DNA of 64,000 nucleotides from a virus. The notes under the pieces are model-generated. The model saw only the letters and a program-made list of their open reading frames with translations. It was not told the origin of the DNA and did no database searches. The translations under genes were made by a program, and so were the position numbers. Location of the stretch: IMG/VR virus record IMGVR_UViG_3300025634_000001, positions 41,738 through 105,737 of that record; one strand, written 5' to 3'. Below, one piece after another: positions 5,165 to 40,246 of the stretch. Within the stretch, counting starts at the first letter, position 1. Each line of letters opens with the position of its first letter.

Positions 5165-6658
5165 ATGGCTCCACCTCTCGGCCAGATGACCGAGGACACC
5201 ATCGCCGCCATCGCCAAGGCGCAGACGACGGGCATCCTCGAGTCCACCGGCATCTACTCCTATGACCTGTCCAACCTGATCTCCCTGATCCCCGTCGTCA
5301 CGCCGTGGCGTGACATGGTGTCGCGGGTCAAGAGCCCTGACGGTAACCCGTACGCGATCTGGCGGGCCATCCTCAACCTCACCAACAGCCAGCCTGACGG
5401 TTCGATGGGCTTCGACTACGCGGCTCAGGAAGTCCAGTTCCAGGAGCAGGACTTCCAGGCCAGGTACAAGCCGACCGGTTACGCGGGCCTGGTCACCCAG
5501 GACGCCTACGACATGGCCACGGGCTATGCCGACCCGTACGCGGTGTCCACGTTCAACACCCTGAACCAGGTGCTGATCATGGACGACCGCAAGCTGATGG
5601 GCGCCCAGTCCTTCGCGCTCGCGTCGGCGTCGGCGCCGACCCTGACCGGCCACACGACCGGCGGCACCATCTCCGCGTCCAGCTGCTACGTCGGCGTCGC
5701 CGCCCGCACCGGGTCCGGGTACTACTACGGTTCCGGGAACAGCCAGGGGAACAGCACCCAGATCACCGGCCTGACCGGCTCGACCAACTCGGTCACCGCG
5801 TCCGTCACGTCGGTCAAGGGCGCGGTCGCCTACGACTGGTTCTACTCGGCGAACGGCTCGACCTGGTACTACTACAGCACCACGACCACGAACACGGTGC
5901 TGATCACGACCACCATCACCAGCAACAACTCGCTGACGTCGGCGACGGTCTGCCCGGACATGTCCACCCAGTGGAAGGGCTCGGCGGGCGTCCCCACCTA
6001 CAACGCCGCCGCCGACAACGGCAGCGCCAACAGCAACGACTACGACGGGCTCCTCGCGAACCTGGCCGGCGACTACAACGGCTCCGGGCAGTGGGTCCAG
6101 CCCGGCACCGGCACCGCCAACCCGGCGATCAACGCCAGCCTCGACGGCGCCGCGCTGACCCTGACCGGCGGGACCATCACCGAGATCGAGTCCAAGCTGT
6201 TCGTCCCGCTGTGGAACCAGGTCAAGTGCTCCCCGACCGCGCTGATGGTCAACGCGGCACAGGCGCAGGAGATCGCCAACCTCATCCTGGGCGCCAACTC
6301 CGCGACGACCTACCTGCAGACCGACTCCTCGGGCCGTATCAACGTCACCGCGGGCGGCCGGGTCGGGTCCATCGTCAACGCCCCGGCAGGCGGCATGACC
6401 GTCCCCATCGAGGTCCACGTCTCCATCCCGCCGGGCACCATCGTCGCGCGCGCCGACCGGGTTCCGTTCCCGCAGGCCAACATCTCCAGCGTGTTCGAGT
6501 ACCGCGCGCTGCGGGACACCGCCCAGTTCGACTACGGCATCTCGCGTGTCGCGAACACGGTCGGCGGAGGGCCGCGTAAAGAATATGAGATTCGCAGTAT
6601 GGGTTCGTTCCTGTGCAGGGCTCCTGTTGCCCAGGCGGTGCTCCAGAACGTGGCCTAG
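5165..6658 (+). CDS. major capsid protein (HK97-fold type) with an inserted Ig-like domain, 497 aa
   Basis: The first 150 residues (APPLGQMTEDTIAAIAKAQ, then VTPWRDMVSRV) and the last 200 (GGTITEIESKLFVPLWNQVK onward) look like an actinophage capsid shell protein that forms the head lattice. Between them, about residues 165-265, is a Ser/Thr/Tyr-rich beta segment (YYYGSGNSQGNSTQITGL, AYDWFYSANGSTWYYYSTT) resembling an Ig/FnIII-like domain, probably displayed on the capsid surface. ATG follows GAAGGAGG. A hairpin lies on each side of the gene, which suits high, separately controlled expression. Confidence 0.8.
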   Translation: MAPPLGQMTEDTIAAIAKAQTTGILESTGIYSYDLSNLISLIPVVTPWRDMVSRVKSPDGNPYAIWRAILNLTNSQPDGSMGFDYAAQEVQFQEQDFQARYKPTGYAGLVTQDAYDMATGYADPYAVSTFNTLNQVLIMDDRKLMGAQSFALASASAPTLTGHTTGGTISASSCYVGVAARTGSGYYYGSGNSQGNSTQITGLTGSTNSVTASVTSVKGAVAYDWFYSANGSTWYYYSTTTTNTVLITTTITSNNSLTSATVCPDMSTQWKGSAGVPTYNAAADNGSANSNDYDGLLANLAGDYNGSGQWVQPGTGTANPAINASLDGAALTLTGGTITEIESKLFVPLWNQVKCSPTALMVNAAQAQEIANLILGANSATTYLQTDSSGRINVTAGGRVGSIVNAPAGGMTVPIEVHVSIPPGTIVARADRVPFPQANISSVFEYRALRDTAQFDYGISRVANTVGGGPRKEYEIRSMGSFLCRAPVAQAVLQNVA

Positions 6659-7918: not shown

Positions 7919-9058
7919 ATAAAGATCCTCTGGCATTCAAACGGGCCGTGGAACCGTAGCGGGTACGGCAAGCAGACCGCACTGTTCGTCCCCCGGATAG
8001 CCGCCCTCGGGCATGAGGTCGTCATCGCCTCCCCGTACACCTTCGGCGGGACGCCGCTGGAATGGGAAGGGTTCACCGTCCTTCCGTGCTCGCGGGACAC
8101 CGCCGGGAACGACGTCTTCACCGCCAACTACGAGTACTTCGGCGCGGACCTCGCCATCACCCTGTGCGATGTGTTCGGGCTGATGAAATGCGCCCCGGAA
8201 CTCGCCGGGCTGAACGTGGCCCACTGGTTCCCCGTGGACACCGACCCGCTCGGCGAAGGTGACGTCACCGTCCTGCGGGAAGGCCAGGGCGTCCCTGTGG
8301 CCATGTCCCGCTTCGGTGAGCGTGTCCTCCGCGGTGAGGGCGCGGACCCCCTGTACGTGCCGCACGGCACCGACACGGCGGTCTACTGCCCCGGCGACCC
8401 GGCTCCTTACCGGGACACCGTTCCGGGGATCGGGCCGGGCACGTTCGTCATCGGGCTGTGCGCGATGAACAGGGACCCGCAGCGCAAGGGCTTCCACGAG
8501 CAGATGCTGGCGTTCTCCCGGTTCCACGCGAGGCACCCCGACTCGTTCCTGGCGCTGCACACGTCCCCGGTGAACAATCCCGGCATCAACCTGCCCGGCA
8601 TGGCGGCCAGGCTCGGGATCTCCGGTGCCGTCGCGTGGCCCGACTCCTACAGCTACGACATGGGCCTCGTCACCGAAGAGCAGATGGCCACCTGGTACCG
8701 GGGCCTGGACATCCTGTCGCTGTGCTCCTACGCGGAAGGGTTCGGCCTCCCGCTGGCAGAGGCCCAGGCGTGCGGGATTCCCGTGGTCACGACCGACGGG
8801 TCCGCGATGTCTGAGCTGTGCGGCGCCGGATGGGTGGTGTCCGGGACGCCATTCTGGGCCAACGGGCACGGGGCATGGTGGAAACGGCCCGACGCCGACG
8901 ACATCGACCAGGCGTACGAGGCGGCATGGCAGGCCCGCGAAGCCGGCCAGCTGCCGCGCAAGCAGGCCCGCGACTTCGCGATGCTGTATGACGCCGACCG
9001 GGTGTTCACCCAGTTCTGGAAGCCGGTCCTCGCCGAGCTCGAAGCCCGCATCACCTAG
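7919..9058 (+). CDS. GT4-type glycosyltransferase, 379 aa, apparently starting at ATA
   Basis: A GT-B glycosyltransferase that would transfer sugar from a nucleotide-sugar donor. The donor-site motif EGFGLPLAEAQACGIP is near residues 275-290, and the N-terminus reads xKILWHSNGPWNRSGYGKQT, the usual start of this family. The first codon of that block is ATA (7919), placed 8 bases after GGAAGG; the first in-frame ATG is at 8171 and would remove the N-terminal Rossmann strand. Either ATA is used, or a mutation or error changed ATG, or a shortened protein is made. It heads a cassette with a methyltransferase and a GT-A transferase. Confidence 0.75.
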   Translation: MKILWHSNGPWNRSGYGKQTALFVPRIAALGHEVVIASPYTFGGTPLEWEGFTVLPCSRDTAGNDVFTANYEYFGADLAITLCDVFGLMKCAPELAGLNVAHWFPVDTDPLGEGDVTVLREGQGVPVAMSRFGERVLRGEGADPLYVPHGTDTAVYCPGDPAPYRDTVPGIGPGTFVIGLCAMNRDPQRKGFHEQMLAFSRFHARHPDSFLALHTSPVNNPGINLPGMAARLGISGAVAWPDSYSYDMGLVTEEQMATWYRGLDILSLCSYAEGFGLPLAEAQACGIPVVTTDGSAMSELCGAGWVVSGTPFWANGHGAWWKRPDADDIDQAYEAAWQAREAGQLPRKQARDFAMLYDADRVFTQFWKPVLAELEARIT

Positions 9059-9290: not shown

Positions 9291-9899
9291 ATGCCGCTCG
9301 CCCGCACCTTCGACCCCGCCACCGGCAAGGTCATCACCACCCTGCACGACGCGTACCTGGACAGGCTGTCCCGGTGGAGCGACATCCAGGAATACCTCCC
9401 GTTCCTGCACGAGCAGGCCCGGTCCCGCAAGGGCGTGCGGGTGCTGGAGCTGGGCAGCAGGCGGGCGAACTCCACCCTGACGTTCCTCGCGGGGGCAACC
9501 GAGTCCGGCGGGCACGTCTGGTCGGCGGACATCGACAACATACTGACCCACGCCGGCGGGATCGGCCCGTGGGCGGACTGCCCCCGGTGGACGTTCATCT
9601 GCGGCGACGACATGAACCCCGCCCTGCAAGCGCTCCTCCCGCCTGAGGTTGACGTGTTCTTCCTCGACACCAGCCACGAGTACGAGCACACCCTCGCCGA
9701 GCTCCGCGCCTACATGCCCCGCGTGGCGGCGGGCGGGATCGCCCTGTTCCACGACACGAACCTCATCGGCTGGCCCGGCTACCAGTGGGACCGGGACATC
9801 CCCCCGGTACGCGCGGCGCTGGACGACTACTGCGCGGAAACCGGGATCACCTGGGAGAACATGCCGGGTGATTACGGGCTCGGGGTCATCCGGCCGTGA
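9291..9899 (+). CDS. class I SAM-dependent methyltransferase, 202 aa
   Basis: Motif I is VRVLELGSRRANST at about residues 50-63; an acidic motif II (WSADID) and the motif IV/V block DVFFLDTSHEYEHTL and GGIALFHDT follow, as in the Methyltransf_24 group often found with sugar-modifying genes. The ATG at 9291 is immediately after the preceding stop; the frame stays open upstream, but only from here does it look like a protein. Its likely substrate is a sugar or small molecule made by the neighbouring glycosyltransferases; that is inferred. Confidence 0.75.
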   Translation: MPLARTFDPATGKVITTLHDAYLDRLSRWSDIQEYLPFLHEQARSRKGVRVLELGSRRANSTLTFLAGATESGGHVWSADIDNILTHAGGIGPWADCPRWTFICGDDMNPALQALLPPEVDVFFLDTSHEYEHTLAELRAYMPRVAAGGIALFHDTNLIGWPGYQWDRDIPPVRAALDDYCAETGITWENMPGDYGLGVIRP

Positions 9900-10045
9900 C
9901 CGTGAACCCGCGGCTGCTGGACCTGCTGGACCGGGACGAACTCGACTGGGATGACCCGAGGCACCGCGAGGCGTACCTGCGCGCATGGGTGAACCGCGAC
10001 CTGCCCGTGAAGGCGGAGGGGAGAGAACCTGATGACCAGCGGTGA
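9896..10045 (+). CDS. small acidic protein, 49 aa
   Basis: Starts at a GTG overlapping the methyltransferase stop (GTGA) and ends 14 bases inside the next glycosyltransferase gene. The peptide (VTVNPRLLDLLDRDELDWDD, then a charged helix) is rich in Asp/Arg/Leu. The double overlap points to translational coupling. No family recognised. Confidence 0.5.
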   Translation: MTVNPRLLDLLDRDELDWDDPRHREAYLRAWVNRDLPVKAEGREPDDQR

Positions 10046-10739
10046 CCTGCTCGTGATCGTCCCCTCTCGCGGACGGCCTGGAAATATCGCCAGGCTCCTC
10101 GACTCCGTTCACGCCACCGCCAGGGCGCAGACGCACCTGCACGTCGCCGTGGACGACGACGACGAGAAACTGCCCCAGTACCGGACGGTCATGGACCATG
10201 CGGGCCGGGACGGCGACACCCTGGAGACCGGGCCGCGTAAGGGCCTGTGCGCATGGACGAACGAGGTAGCCGTCCGCCGTGCGGGCGAGTACCCGTTCCT
10301 CGCCAGCTTCGGTGATGACATGGTGCCCCGCACCCCCGGCTGGGACGCGGCCCTCCTGCGCGGGATCGCGCACATGGGCGGGACCGGGACCGTCTACCCG
10401 TGGGACGGCGCCAGGGAAGACATCCCCGAGGCCGTCGCCCTCTCCAGTGACATCGTGACCGCGCTCGGCTGGATGTGCGAGCCGACGCTGAAGCACTGGT
10501 ACCCCGACAACGTGTGGGCGGACCTGGGGCGCGGAGCGGGCTGCCTGCGGCACCTCCGCGCCGTCGCCGTCGATCACCTGAACGTGGCCGCGCAGGCTAA
10601 GCCCGACGCGACCGCCCGCGACAACGGGCGATCCCTGGACGATGACCGTGAGGCGTACTGGCAGTGGCGGGCCACCCGGATGGCCGGTGACATCGCGACG
10701 ATCGTGAAGCTCCGCGAGAAGACGCTTCAGCCTGCTTAG
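10032..10739 (+). CDS. GT-A (GT2-like) glycosyltransferase, 235 aa
   Basis: Begins LLVIVPSRGRPGNIARLLDS, the nucleotide-sugar-binding start of GT-A transferases, and has VDDDDEK near residue 40 and FGDDMVP near residue 97, a plausible DxD metal site. It overlaps the 49-aa gene and completes a cassette of GT-B transferase, methyltransferase and GT-A transferase. The target could be a virion protein, since the cassette sits inside the structural region; this is inferred. Confidence 0.75.
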   Translation: MTSGDLLVIVPSRGRPGNIARLLDSVHATARAQTHLHVAVDDDDEKLPQYRTVMDHAGRDGDTLETGPRKGLCAWTNEVAVRRAGEYPFLASFGDDMVPRTPGWDAALLRGIAHMGGTGTVYPWDGAREDIPEAVALSSDIVTALGWMCEPTLKHWYPDNVWADLGRGAGCLRHLRAVAVDHLNVAAQAKPDATARDNGRSLDDDREAYWQWRATRMAGDIATIVKLREKTLQPA

Positions 10740-10866
10740 GCCAGGCGTCCGGAAAGCGCCGAGATCGAAGAGCGCGCCCATAGCCTCGCCCGGCGCCTGC
10801 TTTTCCCGCACTTCCGGCTTGCGTGCCGGGTAAAGAAAACCAACCTGACACAAGGAGAGGGTTAAA

Positions 10867-11388
10867 TTGGCGATCGGCCGCACATATAACGTCGACAGTG
10901 GTCAGACGACCGGAATTTCGATCGGCACGGGCGGAGTCGGGGGCACTGAGTATGTCCTGATGTACGGCGGGACTGCCGGCGAGTTCAACATCAGCGCCAT
11001 CCGCGTCGGCACCTACTCCGGCTCCTCGGCGTCGTACCCGTCGAACGGGACGATCACGTGGCGGATCCGCAGGGTGTCCTCCACGAACTCCGCCACCCTC
11101 GTGGGTACCGGCACCGCGTACCCGGTGAGCCAGTCCACGACCGCCGCCTCGAGCGTGTGGATCTACTCCACCGCGAACGGGTCGGGCACCGCGACGTTCG
11201 CCACTCCCGGCAACGTGCTGTGGTCCCAGACGACCCCGTGCACCGCCGGCGCGAACTGGGGTGAGTGGTTCACCCCCGGCTTCGAGCTGAACTGCACCAA
11301 CTCCACCCTCGCGATCACCTACGAGCTCGGTGCGGCGGGTACCACGTCCGCGGTGAACCTGATGCCGGAACTGGTCATCTCCGAGTAA
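10867..11388 (+). CDS. beta-rich structural protein, 173 aa
   Basis: The TTG start is supported by AAGGAGAG 8 bases upstream. The protein is glycine, serine and threonine rich with regular beta alternation and few charges, like a virion decoration or fibre module. It follows the glycosylation cassette and precedes the giant repeat protein. No family recognised. Confidence 0.5.
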   Translation: MAIGRTYNVDSGQTTGISIGTGGVGGTEYVLMYGGTAGEFNISAIRVGTYSGSSASYPSNGTITWRIRRVSSTNSATLVGTGTAYPVSQSTTAASSVWIYSTANGSGTATFATPGNVLWSQTTPCTAGANWGEWFTPGFELNCTNSTLAITYELGAAGTTSAVNLMPELVISE

Positions 11389-11422
11389 CGATGCCGTCGC
11401 GTAACAAGTAAGGCAGGTGCCT

Positions 11423-11456
11423 CTGGAGGTGTGCTGTGATTGCAACGCACTTCCAG
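11423..11456 (+). other. hairpin upstream of the giant structural gene
   Basis: CTGGAGGTGTGCTG (11423-11436) pairs with CAACGCACTTCCAG (11443-11456) with two G-T pairs and one mismatch. It ends 14 bases before the ATG and includes the best ribosome site in the gap (GGAGGT), so it may limit translation. No T-run. Confidence 0.35.
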
Positions 11457-11470
11457 GATAGACGGCAGTC

Positions 11471-14400
11471 ATGAGCATCGGCTTCAGGGCTGCAGCTAAC
11501 GCCAGCTCCGCCGGGGCAGTCGCCAGCCAGGCCATCACGATCCCCTCGACGGTGCAAGCCGGGGATGTCCTGTTCCTGGTTTTCAACGCCTACAGCGGGG
11601 CATCCGGCTCGTCCACGCTGACCGTCACCTCCACCGGGTCGGCGTGGACGCAGCTGGGCACTACCCAGTTCGAGAGCGCGGCCAGCGCCGAGACGAACTC
11701 GGCGATTTTCTACCTCCAGGCGGGCTCCTCGGACGCCAGTGCGACAGTAACGTGTCACACGTCGGTGAGCCTGTTCGTCAACGCCACGATATCCGCGTAT
11801 TCCGGGGCGAACTCGTGGAAGTTCCTTGACGTAACGAACACCACCGGGTCGGCGACGCTGACCTCGACCATGGCAGTCTCCTCGGTCGCCCCCGCCGGGA
11901 CCGCCGACTGGATTATCTACGGGCTGTCCTGCTGTAACGGGGCCACCGGGTATTCCTCCTGCACCGCGCCCGCCGGCACGACGATGCGGGAAGCGAACTT
12001 CGGGTCGGCTTCCGGGATCGCCGCCATCGCCGACTCCAACGGAGCGGTGGCCCCCGGGAGCAGTAACGGCGGCGGGCATTTCACCCCCGATCAGACAGGC
12101 ACGTACACCACCTGGACGATCGGGCTCGCCGCAACGTACGTCCCTCCCGCGGGAACGCCGGCCAAAGCCAGGTTCCCGCTGCCCGCCCGCGGTCGCACGT
12201 ATCCCCTGAATCCCCCCCGGACCCTGCGGATCGTCAACAGCTCCGAGGGCGGCGCCTCCGGGACGACCGCTACCCGCGCCAACAGCGGGGGGCTGTCCGG
12301 GAGCGCGTTCGATGCCGTCGCGATCGCCGCCGGCGGGACGATGGCGTTCAACAGCACGCGCACCGCGCACGGCCTGCGGTCATACAAGGTCGCTGTCGGG
12401 GGGACAGCCGGCACGTCGGTGCTGGAGTGGACTACTTCACTCGGCGGGCCGCAGCCGGTCATCTACTACCGGGCGTACCTCTACTACACGGCGTTCCCGG
12501 CTGTAGCTTCTTCGCCCGTCAGTACCCGTACGGGCGCGTCGGTGAGCTCGGCTTCCATCTCGGTCAGCAGCACCGGCAAGATCAACATCCGCGACGCCGC
12601 CTTCACGACCCGCGCCATCGTCGCACAGCCGATCCCGCTGAACCAGTGGTTCCGGGTCGAAGGCTATTTCGTCGGGAACGCGGTAAACGGCGCTGCCAGC
12701 GCCAGCCTGTACTACCCGATGGATTCCGTCACCGCCGCCTCGACGGCGACCGCCACCGGCATGAACAACGCCGGGCCGGCGAACGCGGTCTGGTTCGGGG
12801 AATCGAACAGCGGGACAAACGAGGGTCCCTGGTGGATCGACGACATCGGGATCTCCAACGCCGGGTACCTCGGTCCCGCCGGCCCCCCGTCCGGTGCGGT
12901 CTTCTACCCGCCAAGCCAGGCGGTCAGGGCGAGGCTCCCGCAGCAGCCGCTACTGCGCGGCCGGGTCACCTCCAGCCCCGGGTCGGTACCCCCGGTGGCC
13001 GTCAGCGGGTCCGCGAAAGCGCTCCAGCGGAATGCCGCCGACAAACTCGCGTACCTGTACGACGGGTCCCTGATATTCGGGTACTGGAGCGGCACCCAAG
13101 GGCAGGTCGGCCACGTCACCAGCCCGCTTGCCGGGCTCTCGGTCACGAACCTGATCTCCACGGCCGAAGACGGCATCTCGATCTGGGTTGACAACAGCGC
13201 CGGTACCTCCAGCGACATCTGGGTCTGCTCCTCCGACGACGACGCCTCCGGCGGCGCCGGCCCGTCCCTGCACGTCCGCCACGGCACCTACACCGGGGGC
13301 GTCTTCACCTGGGACGCCTCCACCCTGATCTCCGGCACCACCACCGCCGCCACCATCCAGTCCACGATCACGTGGAACGGCACCTACCTGATGGTGTTCT
13401 GGTGGGACGGCGCATCCGGCTCGGACCGGGTGTCGTACGCCTACACCAGCACCAAGAACGGCACGTCGGGCTGGACCGCGGCAGCGACGTTCTCCGAGTC
13501 CGCCACCTGGTCCACGATCGTGCAGGTCTGCGCCCGGCACTCGTACAAGCTCGGCGCGACCGTCGTGGTGTACGGCGGCAACAGCCAGATGCACTACGCA
13601 TGCCTGGCCGATTCCGCTGCCAGTCCCGCGACCGGGAACTGGGGCGGCCGGACGGTCTACGACCAGTTCGATGATTCCCTTGAGCTGTTCGGCGGCCCGC
13701 AGGTCGTCATCGACGAGTCTTCCGGTGCCATCCACGTGGCCAGGGCCGTCGCGAACCTGGGCGGGCCGTCCTGGGATGGCGTCATCTACTGGCATGGCAC
13801 CTACACCCCGGGGGCGTCAGGCTCGGTCAGCTTCGCCGCCCGTGTCACGGTCGCGTCCGCCGCGTCCGCCACGGGACCGGCGGATATCGCCGCCGCCGTC
13901 GACGCCACCGGCACCGTCTGGGTGCTGTGGACGGATAACGCTGCCCAGGGGAACCTGAAGTACGCGACGCTGACAGCCCCCTTCACCTCGGCGTCCGCCG
14001 CTACGACGCTGATCGCCGGCAGTGCCACGTCGAACCCGCGCTGGCCGCACGTCCCGGCGGTCTCGGCGGCCCAGGCGGGGCTCGCCACGTTCCTGCCCGT
14101 GCTGTACATGGACACCACGGGCAGCCCGTTCCCGGTCCTGCTGAACACCTCGATCGCGCTGCCCGCCACCCCCGGCCCGGTGTTCTGGCCGGCATCTCAG
14201 GCGGTCCGCGCCCGCCTCCCGCAGCCGCCCATCGGGACAGGCGCCTTCCGGGGCCGGGTCAGCTCCAACCCCGGGACCCCGGTCCGCAGCGTCCCGACGC
14301 AGGGCCCGGTCTTCACCCAGAGGCCCGCCCCGGTCAGGTACGCCCTGCCTGCATGGCAGCCCCGCGCGGGCCGGATCGGGTCGAGTTTCGGCGCCCCGGT

Positions 14401-16456
14401 CATCAACCCGGTCCACGGGCCTCCTGTCTACCCGCTGCAGGGCGAGGTAAGAGCCCAGCTTCCCCCGCTGCAGCCGCGCGCCGGCCGCAGCGCGTCCTGC
14501 CCTGGCAGTCCGCCCCGGAACCCCTCTGCGGGGCCGGTGTTCTACCCTGCGGTGCGCCCGGTACGCGCCCCGGTACCCCCGGTTTTCTCCAAGGGCCGCG
14601 TCCGCTCCGGTCCTGGCAGCGCCGCACGGAATCCGTCCGCAGGCCCCGGGGTTTACGCCCCGGCGGGCCCGGTCCGGATCAGGACCGCCCCCCCGTTCTC
14701 CAAGGGCCGCGTCACTTCCGGTCCCGGATCGCCCGCCCGTAACCCCTCAGCCGGCCCTGCCGTCTACGCGGCGCAGGGTCCCGTCCGCGCCCGGACCGTA
14801 CCCCCGTTCAGCAAGGGCCGCACCGGATCTAACCCCGGCGGCCCTGTCACCGCCCTCCCGGTGCCAGGCCCGGTGTTCCGGCAGGCGCCGGCCCCGGCAC
14901 GCATCCGGCCCGCCCTGCCGTTGCGGGGCCGGATCAGCTCGAACCCCGGCGGGCCCGTCCAGAACCCGCTGCCGCCGATCTTCGGCCCGGTGTTCCGCCC
15001 GTTCCGGTTCCCGGCCAGGGCGAGGATCATCCCGCCGCCGCGCGGCAGGGTCACCTCCAGCCCGGGGTCTCCGCCCCGGAACCCGTCCGCAGGCCCCGTC
15101 TTCGTCCAGGCGCCCCGCCCGGCCAGGGCTCCCGTCCCGCAGGTCTTCTCCAAGGGCCGGGTCAGCTCCGGTCCCGGCACCGCGCCCAGGAACCCCTCAC
15201 CGGGCCCGGTGTTCCGGCAGGCCGTCCGGCCCGCACGCGCCCCCGTCCCGCAGGTGTTCAGCAAGGGCCGCGTCGCATCTTGCGCGGGCGCGCCAGCACG
15301 GAATCCGGTCTCCGGTCCCGTCATCTACGCTCAGCATGGCCCGGCCAGGGCCAGGACCGCCCCCCCGTTCTCCAAGGGCCGGGCCGGCTCTAACGCCGGG
15401 GCTCCCGCCCGGAACCCCGGTACCGGGCATGTCTTCATCCAGGCCGTCCGCCCGGCCCAGGCCAGGCTCCCGCTGCCCGCACGGGGCAGGATCAGCTCGA
15501 ACGCGGGCGGCCCGGTCAGGAACCCGGTCCCGCCGATCTTCGGGCCCCCGTTCTATCCCGCGAGGTCCCCCGCCCGGATCAGGGTCACCCTCCCGCCGCG
15601 AGGCCGCATCGCCTCCGGATCAGGGGCACCTGCCCGGAACCCCGGTACGGGACCCGCCGTCTACGCGGCGCACGGCCCCGTCCGGGCCCGCGTCCCCCAG
15701 GTCTTCTCCAAGGGCCGGGTCCGGTCCGGCCAGGGGACTCATGTCCCGCAAGAAGCCCCGGTCTACCCGCAGCACGGGCCCGTCCGGGCACACCCGGTCC
15801 CGCCTGCTCGCGGGCGTATCGCCTCCGGTCCGGGCATCCCGGTCCCCGCGACCGTCCCTGTTCCCGCCTTCGCGCAGCACGGGCCGGTCCGGGCCAGGAT
15901 CACCCTTCCGGCTCGCGGGCGGGTCAGCATCTTCCGGGCCCCGGCAATCCAGCCGGTCCCGGCCCCGGTCTACCCGCAGCACGGGCCGGTCGCGGCCCGC
16001 CAGCCCCTGTCCCGCAGGGGCCAGGTCCGGTCCGGTGCAGGCACCCCCGTCCGGCATCCCGCGCCGGCCTACCCGCTGCGGCGGCCGGTCCAGGCACGCA
16101 TCCCGCTGCCAGCGCGCGGCAGGACCGCAGGCAACCCGGGCGCCCCCGTCCGGAACCCCGGAACAGGACCGAAGGTCTACCCGCAGCACGGGCCCGCAGG
16201 CCTCGCATGGCGGGCACCCGGCCCGTTCCGCAAGGGATCCGCGCAGGGCAGCCCAGGCAGGTTCACGGCCACGCCGGCCATGTCGCCCCCGTTCGCCGCC
16301 GGCCCCGCCCGGTGGGCGTGGGAAGCGGGAAGCGCCCGCCCGGTATGGGCCGCCGGCCCCGCCCGGTGGGCGTGGGAAGCGGGAAGCGCCCGCCCGGTAT
16401 GGGCCGGCGGCCCCGCCCGGAAGACATGGAACCCAGGCTCCGGCCGGAACCAGTGA
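11471..16456 (+). CDS. giant modular fibre-like protein with C-terminal P/R-rich tandem repeats, 1661 aa
   Basis: Residues 1-225 form a Ser/Thr-rich beta-sandwich-like domain, 250-475 a LamG/jelly-roll-like domain, and 510-880 a domain with repeated Trp/Asp-containing blades (IFGYWSGTQG, YLMVFWWDGASG, VWVLWTDNA) resembling a beta-propeller. From about residue 900 to 1600 there are some 19 degenerate units of 33-38 residues (GPVFxQAxRPARA, then FSKGRVxSGPGxPxRNP), and single copies of the same unit separate the earlier domains (residues 229-247 and 475-502). The end has two identical 18-residue units. It is probably an elongated virion appendage; no enzyme motif was seen. The long Pro/Arg region is very basic. 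Confidence 0.7.
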   Translation: MSIGFRAAANASSAGAVASQAITIPSTVQAGDVLFLVFNAYSGASGSSTLTVTSTGSAWTQLGTTQFESAASAETNSAIFYLQAGSSDASATVTCHTSVSLFVNATISAYSGANSWKFLDVTNTTGSATLTSTMAVSSVAPAGTADWIIYGLSCCNGATGYSSCTAPAGTTMREANFGSASGIAAIADSNGAVAPGSSNGGGHFTPDQTGTYTTWTIGLAATYVPPAGTPAKARFPLPARGRTYPLNPPRTLRIVNSSEGGASGTTATRANSGGLSGSAFDAVAIAAGGTMAFNSTRTAHGLRSYKVAVGGTAGTSVLEWTTSLGGPQPVIYYRAYLYYTAFPAVASSPVSTRTGASVSSASISVSSTGKINIRDAAFTTRAIVAQPIPLNQWFRVEGYFVGNAVNGAASASLYYPMDSVTAASTATATGMNNAGPANAVWFGESNSGTNEGPWWIDDIGISNAGYLGPAGPPSGAVFYPPSQAVRARLPQQPLLRGRVTSSPGSVPPVAVSGSAKALQRNAADKLAYLYDGSLIFGYWSGTQGQVGHVTSPLAGLSVTNLISTAEDGISIWVDNSAGTSSDIWVCSSDDDASGGAGPSLHVRHGTYTGGVFTWDASTLISGTTTAATIQSTITWNGTYLMVFWWDGASGSDRVSYAYTSTKNGTSGWTAAATFSESATWSTIVQVCARHSYKLGATVVVYGGNSQMHYACLADSAASPATGNWGGRTVYDQFDDSLELFGGPQVVIDESSGAIHVARAVANLGGPSWDGVIYWHGTYTPGASGSVSFAARVTVASAASATGPADIAAAVDATGTVWVLWTDNAAQGNLKYATLTAPFTSASAATTLIAGSATSNPRWPHVPAVSAAQAGLATFLPVLYMDTTGSPFPVLLNTSIALPATPGPVFWPASQAVRARLPQPPIGTGAFRGRVSSNPGTPVRSVPTQGPVFTQRPAPVRYALPAWQPRAGRIGSSFGAPVINPVHGPPVYPLQGEVRAQLPPLQPRAGRSASCPGSPPRNPSAGPVFYPAVRPVRAPVPPVFSKGRVRSGPGSAARNPSAGPGVYAPAGPVRIRTAPPFSKGRVTSGPGSPARNPSAGPAVYAAQGPVRARTVPPFSKGRTGSNPGGPVTALPVPGPVFRQAPAPARIRPALPLRGRISSNPGGPVQNPLPPIFGPVFRPFRFPARARIIPPPRGRVTSSPGSPPRNPSAGPVFVQAPRPARAPVPQVFSKGRVSSGPGTAPRNPSPGPVFRQAVRPARAPVPQVFSKGRVASCAGAPARNPVSGPVIYAQHGPARARTAPPFSKGRAGSNAGAPARNPGTGHVFIQAVRPAQARLPLPARGRISSNAGGPVRNPVPPIFGPPFYPARSPARIRVTLPPRGRIASGSGAPARNPGTGPAVYAAHGPVRARVPQVFSKGRVRSGQGTHVPQEAPVYPQHGPVRAHPVPPARGRIASGPGIPVPATVPVPAFAQHGPVRARITLPARGRVSIFRAPAIQPVPAPVYPQHGPVAARQPLSRRGQVRSGAGTPVRHPAPAYPLRRPVQARIPLPARGRTAGNPGAPVRNPGTGPKVYPQHGPAGLAWRAPGPFRKGSAQGSPGRFTATPAMSPPFAAGPARWAWEAGSARPVWAAGPARWAWEAGSARPVWAGGPARKTWNPGSGRNQ
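14170..16260 (+). repeat. about 19 coding tandem repeats of roughly 100-115 bp
   Basis: The encoded unit is GP-(V/A)-(F/Y)-x5-P-(V/A)-R-A-x-(V/L)-P followed by (F/P)-(S/A)-K/R-GR-(V/I)-x-S-x-(P/A)-G-x-P-x-RNP. Units are degenerate at DNA level but keep the same frame and nearly the same length. A subset (units 4, 5, 6, 9, 10, 11, 14) shares the block FSKGR, while others have (P/A)RGR, so two sub-types alternate. Confidence 0.75.
16295..16402 (+). repeat. two identical 54-bp direct repeats
   Basis: Copy 1 is 16295-16348 and copy 2 16349-16402; each encodes 18 residues containing GPARWAWEAGSARPVW. A third, diverged partial copy follows. The exact identity suggests recent duplication. Confidence 0.8.
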
Positions 16457-16467
16457 CAGGAGGCTGA

Positions 16468-16791
16468 GTGAACACGATCTCCCAGTCCGTCCTGTCCACG
16501 AACTACATCCAGGTCCCCGTCACGATCCAGTCACCGGGGGCTTATGACCCCAGCACGGATGTCGTGCAGTTCGCGTTCCCGCCGTCCACCTACCCGCCGA
16601 CCTCGCCCGGCACCTGGTACACGGGCTCATGGGCCGTCTTCCCCGGCCCGGTGTACTGGGCTCAGTGCCTCGTGGGCCCCGCTAACGGGGGAGTGTCGCT
16701 GGCCATCGGCCGGTACCAGGGGGCAGTGAAGATCACCGACAGCGATGCAGTGCCGGTCGAGTACCCGTTCCTTCTGGTCATCACCCCGTAG
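16468..16791 (+). CDS. small connector-region protein, 107 aa
   Basis: GTG start after a strong AGGAGG. The protein is beta-rich (FAFPPSTYPP, YTGSWAVFPGPVYWAQC, SLAIGRYQGAVKI) and ends in a strand. Proteins of this size and pattern lie before the head-tail connector gene in actinophages. Likely a neck or virion accessory protein. Confidence 0.55.
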   Translation: MNTISQSVLSTNYIQVPVTIQSPGAYDPSTDVVQFAFPPSTYPPTSPGTWYTGSWAVFPGPVYWAQCLVGPANGGVSLAIGRYQGAVKITDSDAVPVEYPFLLVITP

Positions 16792-16842
16792 GTATTCCGC
16801 ATCCCCCGTACCGCTGATGCAACGAGGGCGAGGTGATGCCCC

Positions 16843-17790
16843 TTGTCCACCCCCCTGCCTGTCGCTGGCCTCACTCCGTACGTTTCGCCAGAGCTGCTAA
16901 CCCAGGCCAGTACAGGCGTTTCCTGGAATACCGTGCCCCCCGGCGCCAATGTTTCCCCGGCTCAGCGCCTCGCGGAGCAGTCGAACATCTGCGCCCGCGC
17001 GACGGCCGAGGTCGACAAAGCCGCGAAACAGCCGCTCCGCGCCACCATCGACACCCTGCCGCTCTACGGGCCCGGTGTCCGCGTCGGCGCGCAGGGCAAC
17101 GGCCCGGCGACTCTCATCATGACCCGCTGGCCGGTGCTCGAGGTCGTCTCCGTCCAGGTGTCCCGCAACTGCCTGCCCTACGTGTGGACCACCGTCCCGT
17201 CCGACCTGGTGCAGGTCCAGTACCCGCCTGTCGGTCTCTACGGGAGCACAGCCCCCCCGGCGGCAGGCGAAGGCGGGCAGGGGATCCTCGTCTCCCAGGA
17301 GTACGTCAACTGGGCATACGGGCGCAACGGGCTCGCCATCCAGGTCGAGTACATCAACGGGTGGCCCCACTGCGGGCTGCTCGCCAGCGCCGCCCAGGGC
17401 GCGGTGTCCCTGTCCGTCGATGACTGCACCGGCTGGGCGGTCACCTCCCCGCTGACCGGCTACAGCGGGGCCACGGGAACGGTCTACGACGCCGGCTACC
17501 AGGAAGTCATCCAGGTCACCGCCTCGTCCGTAACCCAGGGGCCGGGAACGCTGACCCTCGCCACGCCGCTCCAGTCCGCCCACGCGGCCGGGGTGATGGT
17601 CTCCACCCTCCCGCAGACCGTGGTGTGGGCCGCCACCCTGTTCGGTGCCGCGCAGGCACTCACCCGCGGCGCGACGTCCACCACGGTCCGGCAGATCCCC
17701 GGCACCTCATCGTCGGGTGCGAGCCGGATGGCGGACCTGAAGAAGGAAGCCACCTGCCTGATCGAGGGCACCTTCGACCGGATCATCTGA
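16843..17790 (+). CDS. head-tail connector-like protein, 315 aa
   Basis: The N-terminal PYVSPELLTQASTGVSW and following helices (EQSNICARATAEVDKAAK) resemble the helical core of gp6/gp15-type adaptor proteins; a beta-rich insertion occupies the middle and the C-terminal helix carries a helical tail (SRMADLKKEATCLIEG). The TTG start is used after GAGGTGA. Position between the head genes and the tail terminator-like gene supports a neck role. Confidence 0.6.
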   Translation: MSTPLPVAGLTPYVSPELLTQASTGVSWNTVPPGANVSPAQRLAEQSNICARATAEVDKAAKQPLRATIDTLPLYGPGVRVGAQGNGPATLIMTRWPVLEVVSVQVSRNCLPYVWTTVPSDLVQVQYPPVGLYGSTAPPAAGEGGQGILVSQEYVNWAYGRNGLAIQVEYINGWPHCGLLASAAQGAVSLSVDDCTGWAVTSPLTGYSGATGTVYDAGYQEVIQVTASSVTQGPGTLTLATPLQSAHAAGVMVSTLPQTVVWAATLFGAAQALTRGATSTTVRQIPGTSSSGASRMADLKKEATCLIEGTFDRII

Positions 17791-26823: not shown

Positions 26824-27591
26824 CTAGAACAGCACGCCCGCCAGCTCGCATTCGCGGGCGGCTTCACGCTCCCGCATTGCCGGCGACATTCTCGCGTGCA
26901 TCCTGCATGCGGCGTTGCAGTAGAGCTTGCCCTGCCGCCTTGTCTCGAAGGTGCTTCCGCAGTCGGCGCAGACGTGCACCTGCTCGGCACCTATCTGCTC
27001 GGCGCGCACCCTCTCTAGCGCCTCCTGATAGGTGATGCCCTCGCGGCGCGCAAGACAGACCGCGTTCGCCCGGTCTAGGTGGCACGCTCGGCAATCGCGC
27101 CCCCGTCCGTTTTCGCGCACGATCGTGTTCTCGGGCGTGAACTCGTGGCCGTGAATGCAATGCGTCTGGCTCGACATCACCTGCAACATCGTGCCGTGGC
27201 GAATACCGTCCGCGACATTCTCTTTCCGCGTCCCGTAGAACAGGTTGCCGCCGGCCGCCCTGGCCTCGTCCTCGTCGCCGGGTGCCCAGCGGTTGTTCGC
27301 CGGGTTACCGTCGAGGTGACGGACCTCCTGGCCGGGCGGGCACGGGCCGATAAACGCCCTGGCCACAAGCTGGTGGATCCAGTAGCTGCGCCCGTTCTCT
27401 ACCAGCCCGTACAGGCTGACCTCAACGTGTCCGCTCACCTTGTGGACCTGCGGCTTCAGGATGCAGCCGCGCACCTGCCGCCCTGAGGCGGTCGTGCGCG
27501 GAAGGCTCCGGACGCGACCGAGGTCTGAAATCTCATAGCTGCCCTCATAGTCATCTACGGGCAGCCAGTTCTCGGGCATAGCATCGTTCAC
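26824..27591 (-). CDS. NUMOD4/HNH homing endonuclease, 255 aa
   Basis: The N-terminus (ENWLPVDDYEGSYEISDLGR) is the NUMOD4 DNA-binding motif; an HNH region follows (IHQLVARAFIG, VRHLDGNPANNRW, TRKENVADG), then a cysteine-containing zinc region (CIHGHEFTPENT, RDCRACH) and a second one near the end (CADCGSTFETRRQGKLYC). The GTG at 27591 has a perfect AGGAGGT upstream. It lies antisense between tape measure and the next tail gene, a typical homing insertion. Confidence 0.8.
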   Translation of the reverse strand: MNDAMPENWLPVDDYEGSYEISDLGRVRSLPRTTASGRQVRGCILKPQVHKVSGHVEVSLYGLVENGRSYWIHQLVARAFIGPCPPGQEVRHLDGNPANNRWAPGDEDEARAAGGNLFYGTRKENVADGIRHGTMLQVMSSQTHCIHGHEFTPENTIVRENGRGRDCRACHLDRANAVCLARREGITYQEALERVRAEQIGAEQVHVCADCGSTFETRRQGKLYCNAACRMHARMSPAMREREAARECELAGVLF

Positions 27592-29818: not shown

Positions 29819-31951
29819 GTGGCTACCGAGGTCTTCGCCAACGACCCGTCTACGACGATCAGCAGCGGCGGCACCACAGCACCCGCCAGCGGCACCACGG
29901 AAACCTGGACGGGCGCGTCCTGGGCGTCGTTCCCGGTCGCGGCCACGGGCGCGACCCAGTTCCACGTTTACGACACCGCCGCCGGGTACGGCAGCGAGCT
30001 GATCCTGGTCAGGAACATCTCCGGCACGACGGCGAGCGTCACCAGGGGCGCGGAGGGCACCACCCCGGTAGCCCACGTGACCGGGTTCACGGTCACCCAG
30101 CCGATCACGGCGGGGTTCCTGGGGAACCTGGTCCAGTGCGCCAGCATCGTCTCCTTCGGCGCGGACCCCACCGGGGCGGCCGACTCCACCGCCGCGATCC
30201 AGGCGGCATGGGAGAACGGCCTCCCCGTCTACGCGCCGGCCGGGAATTACCTCGTCGGCACGGGCGGCGTGTCCCTCATCTGGCAGCCGGGCCTGGTGTT
30301 CTTCGGCCCCTATGCGGGCACCTTTCCGGGCCTGGACACGATCCCCGGCATCGCCTACCTGCACCGGGTGGCCAGCACCAATGCGGACGTGATCCAGGTC
30401 CCGGACGGCACGAACTACGGCCGGATGTCCGACATCGCGATCGACGGGAACAAGACCCACAACACCGCCGGGTACGGGATCAACCTCCAGGACGGCGCCG
30501 CCCTCCAGGAAACGGAGATCCACTTCACCCGGTGCTTCATCCACGACAACCCGTACTCGAATTTCTACCTCGGCAACTTCCGGCTCGCGAACCGGCTGCG
30601 GGACTGCACGATCATGTACTCCGCGACGGGGGACGGTATCACCGTCGCGGGCACGGACAACATGATCTCCGGCAACATCATCGGCGACAACGGCCGGTGC
30701 GGCATCGCGGTCGGCACCACGATCTCCCAGAATTACGCCGCCTCGGGCACCGCGTGGGATCCGGCCGACACCCAGATCTACGGGAACAACATCTTCAAGA
30801 ACGACACCGGGATCGCCATCTCCAGTGGCGTGGACAACACGGTCCTGGCGATGAACATCATCAACCTGAATAACAGGCAGGGGATCACGGTCTACGACCA
30901 GACCTGCAACACGATCCACGCGAACATGCTCCACGGCAACAGCCAGGCCACGAACAACGGCTACGCCCACATCGACGTAGGGGCGTCCGTCACCGGGGTC
31001 TCCATCTCGGACAACATGTTCGGCGCGCCGGACGCCGGGACCACCAACGTCGCGTCGTGGTGCGTGAATGTCGGGTCCGGGGCGAGCCCGGGCACGATCA
31101 GCGGGAACCTCGGCACGATGAACGCCACGTCGTCCGTGAACGGGCTGATCAACCAGGCGGGCAGCAACGCCTCCCCGTCGATCATCTTCCCGTCGATGAT
31201 CGTCAAGGCGACGAGCTCATCGCAGAAAGTCTTCCAGCTGGAAAGCACGACGGGCTCTGTGCTGTTCAGCCTGACCAACGGCGGGTCATTCACGCTCCCG
31301 AACGGCGCCGGCCAGTTCGAGACCGCGCAGAACGTCTTCGGGTCCGCGACCGCGCTGGCCAGCGCGGTCGTGTCCCTCGTCGGCACGGCCACGGGGACGG
31401 CGCAGCTGAAGACGCAGCTGTTCGCCGGGCAGACCGCCGACATCGCCGACTTCTACGCCTCCAACGGGTCCACGCTGCTCGCCAAGATCACCGCAGCCGG
31501 GGTGTACGTCGGCCCGCAGGCGGCCTCAGTGAGCTACACCCCGTCCAACCCGACGGCGACGGCCAGCGGCACCCTGGTCATGATGGGACTCGGGACCACC
31601 TGCACCTTCACCCCGGGCGCGACCGGAATCGTGATGGCCACGGTGAACGGGTTCTGGAATACGGCCACGGCGTCAATTAACGGCACCCTGTCGGCGCGCT
31701 ACGGGACCGGGACCGCGCCCGCGAACGCCGCCGCCGTCACGGGCACCCGGTGGGGCACCGGCACGAGCGACCCGTCGATCAACGCGGCCCGCTCCCAGTC
31801 CGGCGCGGTCCCGTTCTCGTTCACCCAGGTCATCACCGGCCTGACGGTCGCCACCGCCTACTGGTTCGACCTGGCCACGAGCACGAGCAACCCGTCGGAC
31901 TCGGCCACCGTCACGAACGTGACGATGAGCTTCACGGAACTGCCCGCCTGA
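29819..31951 (+). CDS. tailspike-like protein with right-handed beta-helix (pectate-lyase-like), 710 aa
   Basis: After a 100-residue N-terminal particle-binding-like region, VSFGADPTGAADSTAAIQAA marks the start of a pectate-lyase/tailspike beta-helix, which continues with regular coils (MISGNIIGDNGRCGIAV, IYGNNIFKNDTGIAISSG, SISDNMFGAPDAG). The C-terminal 250 residues are a beta-rich trimer-like head. Such proteins bind or degrade surface polysaccharide. GTG start after GGGGGAGG. Catalytic residues could not be fixed by eye. Confidence 0.75.
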   Translation: MATEVFANDPSTTISSGGTTAPASGTTETWTGASWASFPVAATGATQFHVYDTAAGYGSELILVRNISGTTASVTRGAEGTTPVAHVTGFTVTQPITAGFLGNLVQCASIVSFGADPTGAADSTAAIQAAWENGLPVYAPAGNYLVGTGGVSLIWQPGLVFFGPYAGTFPGLDTIPGIAYLHRVASTNADVIQVPDGTNYGRMSDIAIDGNKTHNTAGYGINLQDGAALQETEIHFTRCFIHDNPYSNFYLGNFRLANRLRDCTIMYSATGDGITVAGTDNMISGNIIGDNGRCGIAVGTTISQNYAASGTAWDPADTQIYGNNIFKNDTGIAISSGVDNTVLAMNIINLNNRQGITVYDQTCNTIHANMLHGNSQATNNGYAHIDVGASVTGVSISDNMFGAPDAGTTNVASWCVNVGSGASPGTISGNLGTMNATSSVNGLINQAGSNASPSIIFPSMIVKATSSSQKVFQLESTTGSVLFSLTNGGSFTLPNGAGQFETAQNVFGSATALASAVVSLVGTATGTAQLKTQLFAGQTADIADFYASNGSTLLAKITAAGVYVGPQAASVSYTPSNPTATASGTLVMMGLGTTCTFTPGATGIVMATVNGFWNTATASINGTLSARYGTGTAPANAAAVTGTRWGTGTSDPSINAARSQSGAVPFSFTQVITGLTVATAYWFDLATSTSNPSDSATVTNVTMSFTELPA

Positions 31952-39001: not shown

Positions 39002-40246
39002 TCAGGCAGCTATCGCCTGACGGGCAAGCCCTGCCCGCAAGATGTTGATGGCCGCGTTCACGTCCGCGTGGGCCTCGTGGCCGCACGACAGGCACCGGAA
39101 AACGGCCTGGCTTGCACGGTTCCCCTTGGCGACGTGCCCGCACTGAGCGCATCGCTGCGAGGTGTTCTGGGGGTTTACTGCGACTACCGTCCGTCCGGCC
39201 CATTCTGCCTTGGCGGCGAGTATCCGCAGGAAGTTACCCCATCCCGCATCCTTGATGGATCTGTTCAGCCCAGCTTTGGCCGCCGCGCCGTTTGGCTCGA
39301 ACGTGCCGTCACCAACCGGCCGCGGTTTCGGTCGGCGGGTCATGTTCGCGATCTTCAATGCTTCATGCACGATCACGTCATGGTCACGGACGAGAGCCAG
39401 CGCGGTCTTATGGGCATGGTCGAGGCGCTGGCGGCGTGCCTTGCCGTACAGTGCCGCAACCCGCCGGGTGGCCTTGCGCCTGCGATTGCTTCCTAGTTTC
39501 TTGCGGGAGTGCTTCCGGTTGGCGGCGGCAAGACGTTCAGTGATGGCGGCATGCGGGCGCGGGTTCGGGACGTGCTTCCCGTCGCTGGTCGTCAGGAACG
39601 ACATCACGCCTAGGTCGATGCCGACGACCGCGCCAGTCGGCGCCAGTGCCTCAACCGGCACGTCATCGCAAGTCAGGATCACGTACCAGCGACCAAGCTC
39701 ACGTCTTACCGTGATCCTCTTGACGATGCCCCTGACCGGGCGGTGCTGGTGTACGCGGACGTGGCCGATGCCCTGAAGCTTCACGCGGGTCACGGTCGGA
39801 TGCGGGACAGAATCCCAGAGGCATGCATGGCCATTCTCCGGCCACTCGATGGAGTTCCACCGACCCCGCCCCTTGAAGCGAGGATGGCCGGGTACCTCGC
39901 CTGCCTTGACGCGACGGAAGAAGCCTAGGAACGCATCGTCAAGGCGACGGAGAGTTTCCTGCTCGCAACTGTAGGCCCACCGGGTGAACCGCTCCGGGGC
40001 GGCGGCACGGATCTCCTTCAGCTGTGCCGCCTGTGTGCTGTAGAAGATGCGGCGTTTCCCCATCCGCCATGCCTCAACGCGTTCCTCAAGCGCGGCGTTA
40101 TATAGCTCGCGGGTGTCCTCAAGGCACGCCTCGAACGCGGCTATCTGCTTAGCAGTCGGCCGCAGAAGGAACCTATAGTTGCGATACAACCTGCACCGGG
40201 TCTCAGTAGTCGGTGTGGGTTCAGGCCCGGTTCGGTGGTTGCACAT
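39002..40246 (-). mobile_element. tnpB: IS200/IS605-type TnpB RNA-guided nuclease, 414 aa
   Basis: The RuvC triad is present: D211 (VVGIDLGV), E295 (VIVHEALKI), D395 (AHADVNAA). A four-cysteine zinc finger (C366, C369, C385, C388: RCAQCGH, RCLSCGH) lies between the last two. The N-terminus (YRNYRFLLRPTAKQIAAFE) is the usual WED start. No TnpA transposase gene is nearby, so this is a stand-alone copy that moved with help in trans or was fixed. It separates two small helical-protein genes, antisense to the late region. Confidence 0.85.

Follow-up and report, generated by a model that had tools for sequence, protein, structure and literature searches.

The stretch of DNA analysed here (the window) comprises 64,000 nucleotides of the genome of a soil virus, positions 41,738 to 105,737 of IMG/VR record IMGVR_UViG_3300025634_000001, and forms the right-hand 64 kb of that 105,737-base record. 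Between a major capsid protein gene and a head-to-tail adaptor gene, the window encodes a large protein (the array protein) in which three globular domains, D1 to D3, are followed by a long tandem array of proline- and arginine-rich units and by a short tryptophan-rich tail. Directly downstream lies a small gene, hereafter the partner gene, whose product was nicknamed 'SVLST' here after a conserved stretch of its sequence. The coordinates of these features and of the neighbouring genes are collected in Table 1.

Table 1. Features of the array-protein locus (positions in the window).
Feature	Coordinates	Strand	Remarks
Major capsid protein (phrog_13692)	5165..6658	+	40-42% identical to annotated Mufasa8 and Sonali capsid proteins
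Glycosyltransferase, Pfam Glycos_transf_1	8171..9058	+	
S-adenosylmethionine (SAM) methyltransferase, Pfam Methyltransf_24	9291..9899	+	
Glycosyltransferase (phrog_14945)	10032..10739	+	homologue near the module in 6/16 fetched actinomycete regions
Small protein, 173 residues, adjoining the array gene upstream	10867..11388	+	no Pfam match
Repeat-stalk fibre-like protein (array protein), 1661 residues	11471..16456	+	open frame throughout
Globular domain D1 (residues 1-222), N-terminal, beta-rich by eye	11471..12136	+	
Single Pro/Arg unit linking D1 and D2 (residues 220-256)	12128..12238	+	unit profile, periodicity
Globular domain D2 (residues 255-466)	12233..12868	+	related to Hiyaa gp13 N-terminal domain
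Single Pro/Arg unit linking D2 and D3 (residues 476-512)	12896..13006	+	unit profile, periodicity
Globular domain D3 (residues 509-896), beta-propeller-like by eye only	12995..14158	+	
Array of 19 Pro/Arg units (residues 902-1604), presumed stalk	14174..16282	+	profile, periodicity, composition
C-terminal tail (residues 1605-1661), Trp at 9-residue intervals, presumed docking peptide	16283..16453	+	
Partner ('SVLST'), 107 residues, predicted immunoglobulin (Ig)-like beta sandwich, presumed anchor	16468..16791	+	
Head-to-tail adaptor	16843..17790	+	24% identical to annotated Mufasa8 and Sonali adaptors

Architecture of the array protein

An initial annotation of this locus, made by a model from the letters alone, had described a giant fibre-like protein ending in about 19 repeats over some 700 residues, and both the coordinates of the reading frame and the repeats were confirmed. 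A home-made codon-usage gene caller (version 2, with approximate start sites) kept the frame as well; the array gene was among its training genes, so this lends no independent support. A profile built from 17 units found 21 copies in the protein, 20 of them at more than 5 bits, starting near residues 224, 475 and 902 and, from residue 902, running in tandem until about residue 1604. The first two are the single copies that had been placed between the globular domains, and the remaining 19 form the array. The spacing of array units ranged from 33 to 39 residues and was most commonly 37 (8 of 18 intervals), rather than the roughly 35 residues first given for the unit. Self-identity at a lag of 37 was 0.256, whereas none of 200 composition-preserving shuffles went beyond 0.163, and the signal was seen again with 300 further shuffles (0.26 versus a maximum of 0.16), indicating a significant tandem array between the head domains and the tail; a lag-18 signal was not seen in the window array.

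The unit is basic and rich in proline, as had been stated: residues 905-1604 consist of 20.7% Pro and 12.4% Arg and contain 96 Lys/Arg and 2 Asp/Glu residues, with Ser and Thr together making up 10% of the array. The two sub-types of unit, first described as alternating, instead follow the order SKGR x3, RGR x2, SKGR x3, RGR x2 and onward, which constitutes a five-unit super-repeat, and amino acid identity between units was highest at the five-unit lag (0.497, with 0.33-0.46 at the remaining lags up to eight). Among six SKGR units, identity at the three codon positions was 0.63, 0.69 and 0.49, the third position differing most; this low third-position identity fits old units maintained by selection on the protein.

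Neither the array protein nor its repeat matched a Pfam family at E up to 1, and the array protein matched no PHROG at E up to 1. A PDB search with the array protein and repeat gave no match, and tblastn of the whole protein and repeat in phages and plasmids returned none; one viral contig was found to carry an identical copy. Repeat dimers varied too much for their alignment to serve as a query. The unit profile matched one of 36 capsid-related records (G001; the set comprises 34 other IMG/VR loci and the Arthrobacter phages Mufasa8 and Sonali) and one of 13 further records, that of locus L062; in two bacterial genomes, 150 of more than 1500 candidates were scored each, and misses there mean little. 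The early judgement that the unit is unlike known fibre repeats is consistent with these Pfam, PHROG and PDB results, but a wider family of such proteins exists in isolated Streptomyces phages and among PHROGs (phrog_14065).

Relatives of the head domains were found with differing clarity. D1 was weakly like eight other N-termini, whose profile scored it at 6.4 bits (E 0.1), with no more than 1.6 bits in 300 shuffles. D2 was recognised, over residues 313-476, by a profile of the N-termini of proteins from Streptomyces phages Hiyaa, Galactica and Keanu and from L113 at 21.3 bits (E 3.2e-6), and the best of 300 shuffles reached 5.8 bits. The L113 protein, through which Hiyaa was reached, matches phrog_14065; the window protein does not. 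D3 is 69-70% identical to a domain of L127 that is carried on a different repeat array; D3 itself had no Pfam match and gave E 0.15 or worse in a PDB profile search, and a PDB profile search with relatives of D2 gave no match. Across the family, by eye and by profile searches, the N-termini comprise several kinds of domain, including a Pfam Laminin_G_3 (concanavalin-like lectin) domain in L119 (E 1.1e-9) and a weak DUF4082 match, under the family cut-off, in L071.

The C-terminal tail, the partner gene and the exchange of arrays

The array protein ends in a Trp-rich tail of 57 residues that was absent from the initial annotation. Spacings between Trp residues in the final 60 residues are 2, 9, 7, 2, 9 and 9. 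At least two Trp residues were present in the last 45 residues of 26 of 30 partner-linked proteins (the 29 of the periodicity test described below and L066), versus 125 of the 539 remaining called proteins, 100 residues or longer, from the gene-called loci (Fisher p 1.9e-12, which is only a guide, because the proteins are related). In partner-linked tails, Trp mostly recurs every 9 or 10 residues, and every 6 in several short prophage tails. A tail profile was built without the window, the four proteins of the Hiyaa group (described below), L118, L061 and L060 (a near-copy of L072); it scored the last 60 residues of the window protein at 21.8 bits. The highest score among 400 shuffles was 16.0, reached by one of the 200 in which these same residues were shuffled.

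The window partner shares 43-65% identity with other homologues (alignments A3-A5; 14 sequences). An AlphaFold2 model based on 14 sequences predicted a seven-stranded, Ig-like sandwich with a mean predicted local distance difference test score (pLDDT) of 83.3 and a predicted template modelling score of 0.77. Among viral models, the best Foldseek match of the partner, and the sole one with E below 0.001, was an uncharacterised phage protein (E 8.9e-5); the weaker matches, at E 0.004-0.013, included BppU-domain proteins and a protein named 'LtfC/p132/Gp6 beta-sandwich', the latter from Gordonia phage Zitch (E 3.9e-3, TM-score 0.48). In a VIA comparison with PDB chains, the 50 matches listed were mostly Ig-domain chains (Z 6.9-7.7); no phage fibre-anchor, T5 or DT57C chain was among these 50, which excludes nothing. 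Thirteen other members of alignment A5 and ten further homologues matched no Pfam fibre-anchor family at E up to 5, in a search whose program drops most matches above about 0.1.

Two overlapping alignment scans yielded 9 and 14 viral loci with the partner, the window's own virus included, and a hidden Markov model search revealed the partner in 14 of 392 Streptomyces genomes as well as in 6 of 394 genomes drawn class-wide, three genomes being common to both sets. A search of genome contigs for the partner found none, nor did tblastn in phages when two partner proteins from prophages were the queries. An array or low-complexity gene lay directly upstream of the partner in 13 of 14 distinct viral or prophage loci, namely the window, L050, L056, L058=L071, L059=L072, L060=L073, L061=L076, L062=L075, L066, L067, L069, L077, L078=L080 and L079=L019. 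It should be noted that L078=L080 and L079=L019 came by homology, outside the partner scans, and that the contigs of L050 and L061 start within the array gene, their N-termini not being seen; L074 was left out, with its partner at the contig end, and L114, which the gene caller missed, stands outside the counts. The L066 gene encodes a short Pro/Arg array and a tail, with no head domain in the same frame. The partner was also found in 15 of 16 fetched actinomycete regions, in 17 copies, and the product of the gene upstream of each copy begins, by eye, with an N-terminal domain and ends in a short tail, with a variable middle between them; four of these 17 middles lacked significant periodicity.

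Two irregular loci were observed among these relatives. Around 9912-10725 of L114, in an actinomycete genome, a partner-like sequence and a tail-like end lie in different frames, as in a decayed prophage. At 8766-9443 of L066, an HNH-like gene (by eye) stands between a head-like gene and the short array gene, perhaps reflecting a split fibre gene.

Significant periodicity was detected in 29 of the 34 proteins tested, which comprised 29 partner-linked proteins, four of the Hiyaa group and L127. It was weak, at 0.03, in L109 and L117, and not significant in L061, L107 (second copy), L110 (second copy), L112 and L119. The best lag was 18 in L056, L067, L071, L078, L104 and L127, and ten actinomycete proteins and the Hiyaa group gave 20 or twice that value. 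It was 22 in L060, L072 and L118; 23 in L108; and 36-37 in the window, L050, L069, L075 and L077, so that the best lags of the full set were 18, 20, 22-23 or 36-40 residues. As a guess, the 36-37 lag could be a doubled 18. Because L072 is closely related to L060, and the four Hiyaa-group proteins to one another, these counts are not counts of independent events. In composition, the arrays range from Pro/Arg-rich through Ala/Thr-rich to nearly uncharged. The window unit profile recognised the array of L050 (E 5e-45) and, weakly, that of L062 (E 6e-5), and matched no further array in an eight-locus test, L057 being a piece of the L062 array. A common origin of the Pro/Arg and Ala/Thr units, plausible by eye, was considered and rejected, as hhalign detected no kinship (probability 0.1%); when the Ala/Thr profile was run against nine real and 300 shuffled arrays, all of the top 30 matches were shuffles. 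The other kinds of array were compared by eye only.

The cleanest case of array exchange is L127, where the D3-like domain is joined to an Ala/Gly/Ser/Thr array whose 466 residues include 6 Lys/Arg, versus 96 in 700 in the window. Related genes thus share the architecture of the window gene with other arrays, and L127 keeps D3 on one of them, in agreement with the initial proposal of a fibre-like protein with an extended stalk.

Gene neighbourhood and host

The gene order at the locus is capsid, sugar enzymes with a methyltransferase, small gene, array gene, partner and adaptor. Only one small gene separates capsid and adaptor in Mufasa8 and Sonali, which indicates that the array-gene stretch of the window is extra. 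Small genes directly upstream of the array gene were seen by eye in many relatives. Among the 36 capsid-related records, only G001 has the Pro/Arg repeat of the window protein, located upstream of the head genes and before a terminase-like gene (by eye). Left of the window, the record holds a homologue of the portal-like gene of G001 and a terminase-like gene (named by eye); no match to the G001 terminase-like gene was found there by tblastn. The position of the module varies among relatives: it occurs among head genes in some, ahead of the terminase in others (supported by PHROG in L109 and otherwise by eye) and, by eye, near lysis-like genes in yet others. An Rfam scan of 10500-17500 gave no match, and the same region contained no promoter-like sites (0.4 in shuffles) and three terminator-like sites (2.0 in shuffles, standard deviation 1.3).

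The family phrog_13692 is filed as of unknown function and looks like a major capsid family through the homology of its window member to the Arthrobacter phage proteins; further phrog_13692 genes were seen at 16728-18569 of L067 and 4173-5219 of L066. A genome-contig search found related capsid genes in two Streptomyces genomes, those of S. prunicolor and S. cavernae, presumably within prophages. Because of these capsid relatives, the host of the virus is probably a streptomycete or a near relative.

Several other features were observed in passing. The adaptors of L120 (12833-13492, annotated in Hiyaa) and L127 (8226-9176, by eye) have, by eye, an extra Ig-like N-terminal domain, and their genes stand at the array gene or shortly behind it. 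In the window, a NUMOD4 and HNH homing-endonuclease-type gene (26824-27579, minus strand) directly follows the tape measure gene, and the stretch after the tape measure gene also encodes a large protein (29819-31951, plus strand) that gave a beta-helix match in Pfam. A partial homologue of the latter lies directly after the L062 partner (8327-8734, 55% by tblastn), and the product of L067 10324-11913, in the same place after its partner, resembles it at the start (by eye). A TnpB or IS605 OrfB-type gene (39002-40246, minus strand; OrfB_IS605 E 9e-24, Cas12f1-like TNB E 2.5e-24) lies inside the phage genome.

Readings of the array protein and comparison with known systems

On balance, we consider it probable, with considerable room for doubt, that the array protein is an accessory fibre of the actinophage virion, likely adhesive, whose C-terminal tail is held by the partner and whose stalk is exchangeable. 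The globular domains D1 to D3 would be the displayed heads, and the Pro/Arg units would serve as spacer, single copies linking the heads and the 19 tandem copies forming a long, extended stalk. The sequence of that stalk may matter little, being replaceable by other types of repeat; accordingly worded, the array sequence is probably not the point, and the array is one of several exchangeable stalks. The tail, with Trp at every ninth residue, would be the constant end, most likely plugging into the Ig-like partner, which could hold the fibre on the head, neck or tail of the particle much as T5 p132 and DT57C LtfC do with lateral fibres. The attached end would then be the C-terminus, and C-terminal attachment is the bold part of this proposal.

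A broader scheme is put forward more tentatively, as a possibility that we rate below even chances: actinophages may possess plug-and-play fibres with many heads and stalks and one Trp-9 docking peptide gripped by an Ig-like partner, exchanged by recombination, situated in at least three places in the structural gene clusters and accompanied by a recurrent sugar-modification set. If the proposal holds, the tail motif and the adjoining Ig-like gene would predict which giant actinophage surface proteins filed as 'hypothetical' or 'minor tail protein' are fibres and by which end they are held, a possible fusion point for domain display on actinophages would be gained, and virion glycosylation and fibres would be joined in a testable form. 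The exchange of arrays between phages would then offer a natural test of whether stalk sequence matters at all.

Several observations weigh against this interpretation. The full-length protein scored only 5.4 bits (E 0.41) with the bias-corrected tail profile, its best single stretch reaching 11.3, and because the profile test is weak, the case for the tail rests on the number and spacing of the Trp residues; the tails of L061, L066 and L116 have one Trp each, L118 has an array and a tail without Trp, and the Hiyaa-group tails have Leu where Trp is expected. L079 has a partner and no array gene, and gene maps of the Hiyaa group show the array gene without a separate partner gene. The Ig-like start of the Hiyaa adaptor, gp14, was considered as a fused partner, which would have suggested a position at the neck, and was dropped after an hhalign probability of 0.5%. 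The window partner had no Pfam match, and with Z scores under 8 its resemblance to PDB chains may reflect no more than a shared arrangement. An AlphaFold2 run on residues 1-1094 and two partial relatives gave a mean pLDDT of 34, leaving heads and units without a usable model, and the folds of D1 and D3 were named by eye only. From the variable position of the module, no single attachment site follows.

Presence in the virion is likewise presumed, the array protein being known here from its gene alone, and this is the point that favours a non-structural protein, for example one staying on the host cell. We regard that alternative as very unlikely, as the gene lies within a run of structural genes with few gaps, and 'head and packaging' PHROG labels apply to a relative (phrog_2804) and to a neighbour of another relative (phrog_240). 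An ordinary tail fibre or minor tail protein encoded among head genes, with its N-terminus anchored at the tail and the Trp tail as receptor-binding tip, would agree with the annotation of Hiyaa gp13 and Galactica gp11 as 'minor tail protein' and with the modules of L072 and L077, which lie near fibre-like and lysis-like genes (by eye); however, the classical pattern of a conserved N-terminus and a variable, receptor-binding C-terminus is reversed here, the N-terminus being variable and the C-terminal tail and the next gene more constant, and both in the window and in the Hiyaa group the array gene sits in the stretch bounded by the capsid and head-tail adaptor genes, so that we consider such a fibre unlikely. 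The initial annotation had also suggested that the basic units bind acidic wall polymers (such as teichoic acids) or DNA, charge being the function. The excess of basic residues in the window array speaks for this, as do the C-terminal stretches of L050, L061, L067, L069, L071, L075, L077, L078 and L104, with 9-19% Lys/Arg and 0-2% Asp/Glu. Against it, the arrays of L072 and L060, at the same position, are nearly uncharged, with Lys/Arg at 1% and Asp/Glu at 3%, several actinomycete arrays hold as much acid as base, the D3-like domain of L127 is borne by an array nearly devoid of Lys/Arg, and single units also serve as interdomain linkers; a polycation function is thus disfavoured, and we give it a small chance.

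The other early suggestion, that the array is a scaffold decorated by the adjacent glycosyltransferases and methyltransferase, which would change adsorption or recognition of the particle, draws on the two glycosyltransferases and the methyltransferase that precede the array gene. Homologues of the sugar enzymes of the window or of L109 were found in 7 of 34 loci, the window not counted (L050, L106, L107, L109, L110, L111 and L117); the related transferases of G001 are included in this total. Glycosyltransferase, methyltransferase and epimerase homologues lie directly after the partner or within a few kb of it in 6 of the 16 actinomycete regions, directly after it in L106, L109, L110 and L117; the L109 set consists of a glycosyltransferase (PHROG only), a methyltransferase and a nucleotide-sugar epimerase (PHROG/Pfam). 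The part of PMC11256854 that was consulted cites glycans on capsid proteins in two mycobacteriophages, Che8 and Rita. However, no enzyme homologue was found in 27 of the 34 loci within the stretches covered, several of which are short; Ser and Thr make up only 10% of the window array, the G001 transferases lie about 14 kb from the array gene, and the enzymes could instead act on the capsid protein or on other proteins of the surface. A glycan carrier is therefore rather unlikely as the function of the array, although the recurring sugar enzymes favour some link between fibre and glycosylation, in which the array may possibly act as substrate. Overall, the initial interpretation was partly supported, and an exchangeable-stalk fibre remains our preferred reading.

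The closest isolated relatives are Hiyaa gp13 (1110 residues), Galactica gp11, Spocter gp13 and Keanu gp13 of Streptomyces phages (the Hiyaa group; 1101-1110 residues), which are annotated as minor tail protein or hypothetical protein; Hiyaa grows on S. lividans JI 1326. As in the window, the array protein of these phages is encoded between the capsid gene, with a methyltransferase gene intervening, and the head-to-tail adaptor gene, and it has an N-terminal domain related to D2, a tandem array and a short repetitive C-terminal tail; dissimilar from the window, its array unit is about 20 residues long (best lag 20 or 40) and not Pro/Arg-rich, and the whole window protein had no tblastn similarity to any phage record. 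No description of a family of array fibres with a partner was found among the papers listed in searches of an open-licence library.

Among described head fibres and decoration adhesins, phi29 gp8.5, T4 Hoc, SPP1 gp12 and the capsid fibres of phage 7-7-1 are, in the portions of the sources seen, surface fibres or elongated domains thought to aid attachment to the host or to cell surfaces (PMC7602432, PMC12796354), and in this they resemble the fibre proposed here. Their stalks differ, being a helical coil in gp8.5, Ig-like domains in Hoc and a predicted collagen-like structure in gp12 (same sources), and no sequence link was found between the array protein and any of these four. Mycobacteriophage Douge also offers a likeness, with several surface domains, some of them Ig-like, reported to bind host glycans; they are carried by capsid, tail-tube, central-fibre and baseplate proteins, and the part of the report consulted describes no exchangeable repeat stalk (PMC13033339).

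For the partner, the instructive comparison is with lateral-fibre anchors. According to the sections seen of the T5 study, lateral fibres are grafted onto the collar protein p132, a member of the Ig superfamily that has been likened to BppU, and unassigned density suggests about 50 terminal fibre residues at p132 (PMC10038345); the DT57C study, likewise seen in part, describes LtfC gripping the end of the LtfA fibre by strand addition (PMC10713586). In both phages a small Ig-like or all-beta protein thus holds a flexible terminal stretch of the fibre, as would be the case here, although the fibre in T5 and DT57C is held by its N-terminus at the tail tip, whereas the constant end of the array protein is the C-terminus. 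The relation of the partner to p132 and LtfC is an analogy of arrangement and fold rather than membership of one family, as no profile match connects them; together with the predicted fold of the partner, this likeness supports its reading as a fibre anchor.

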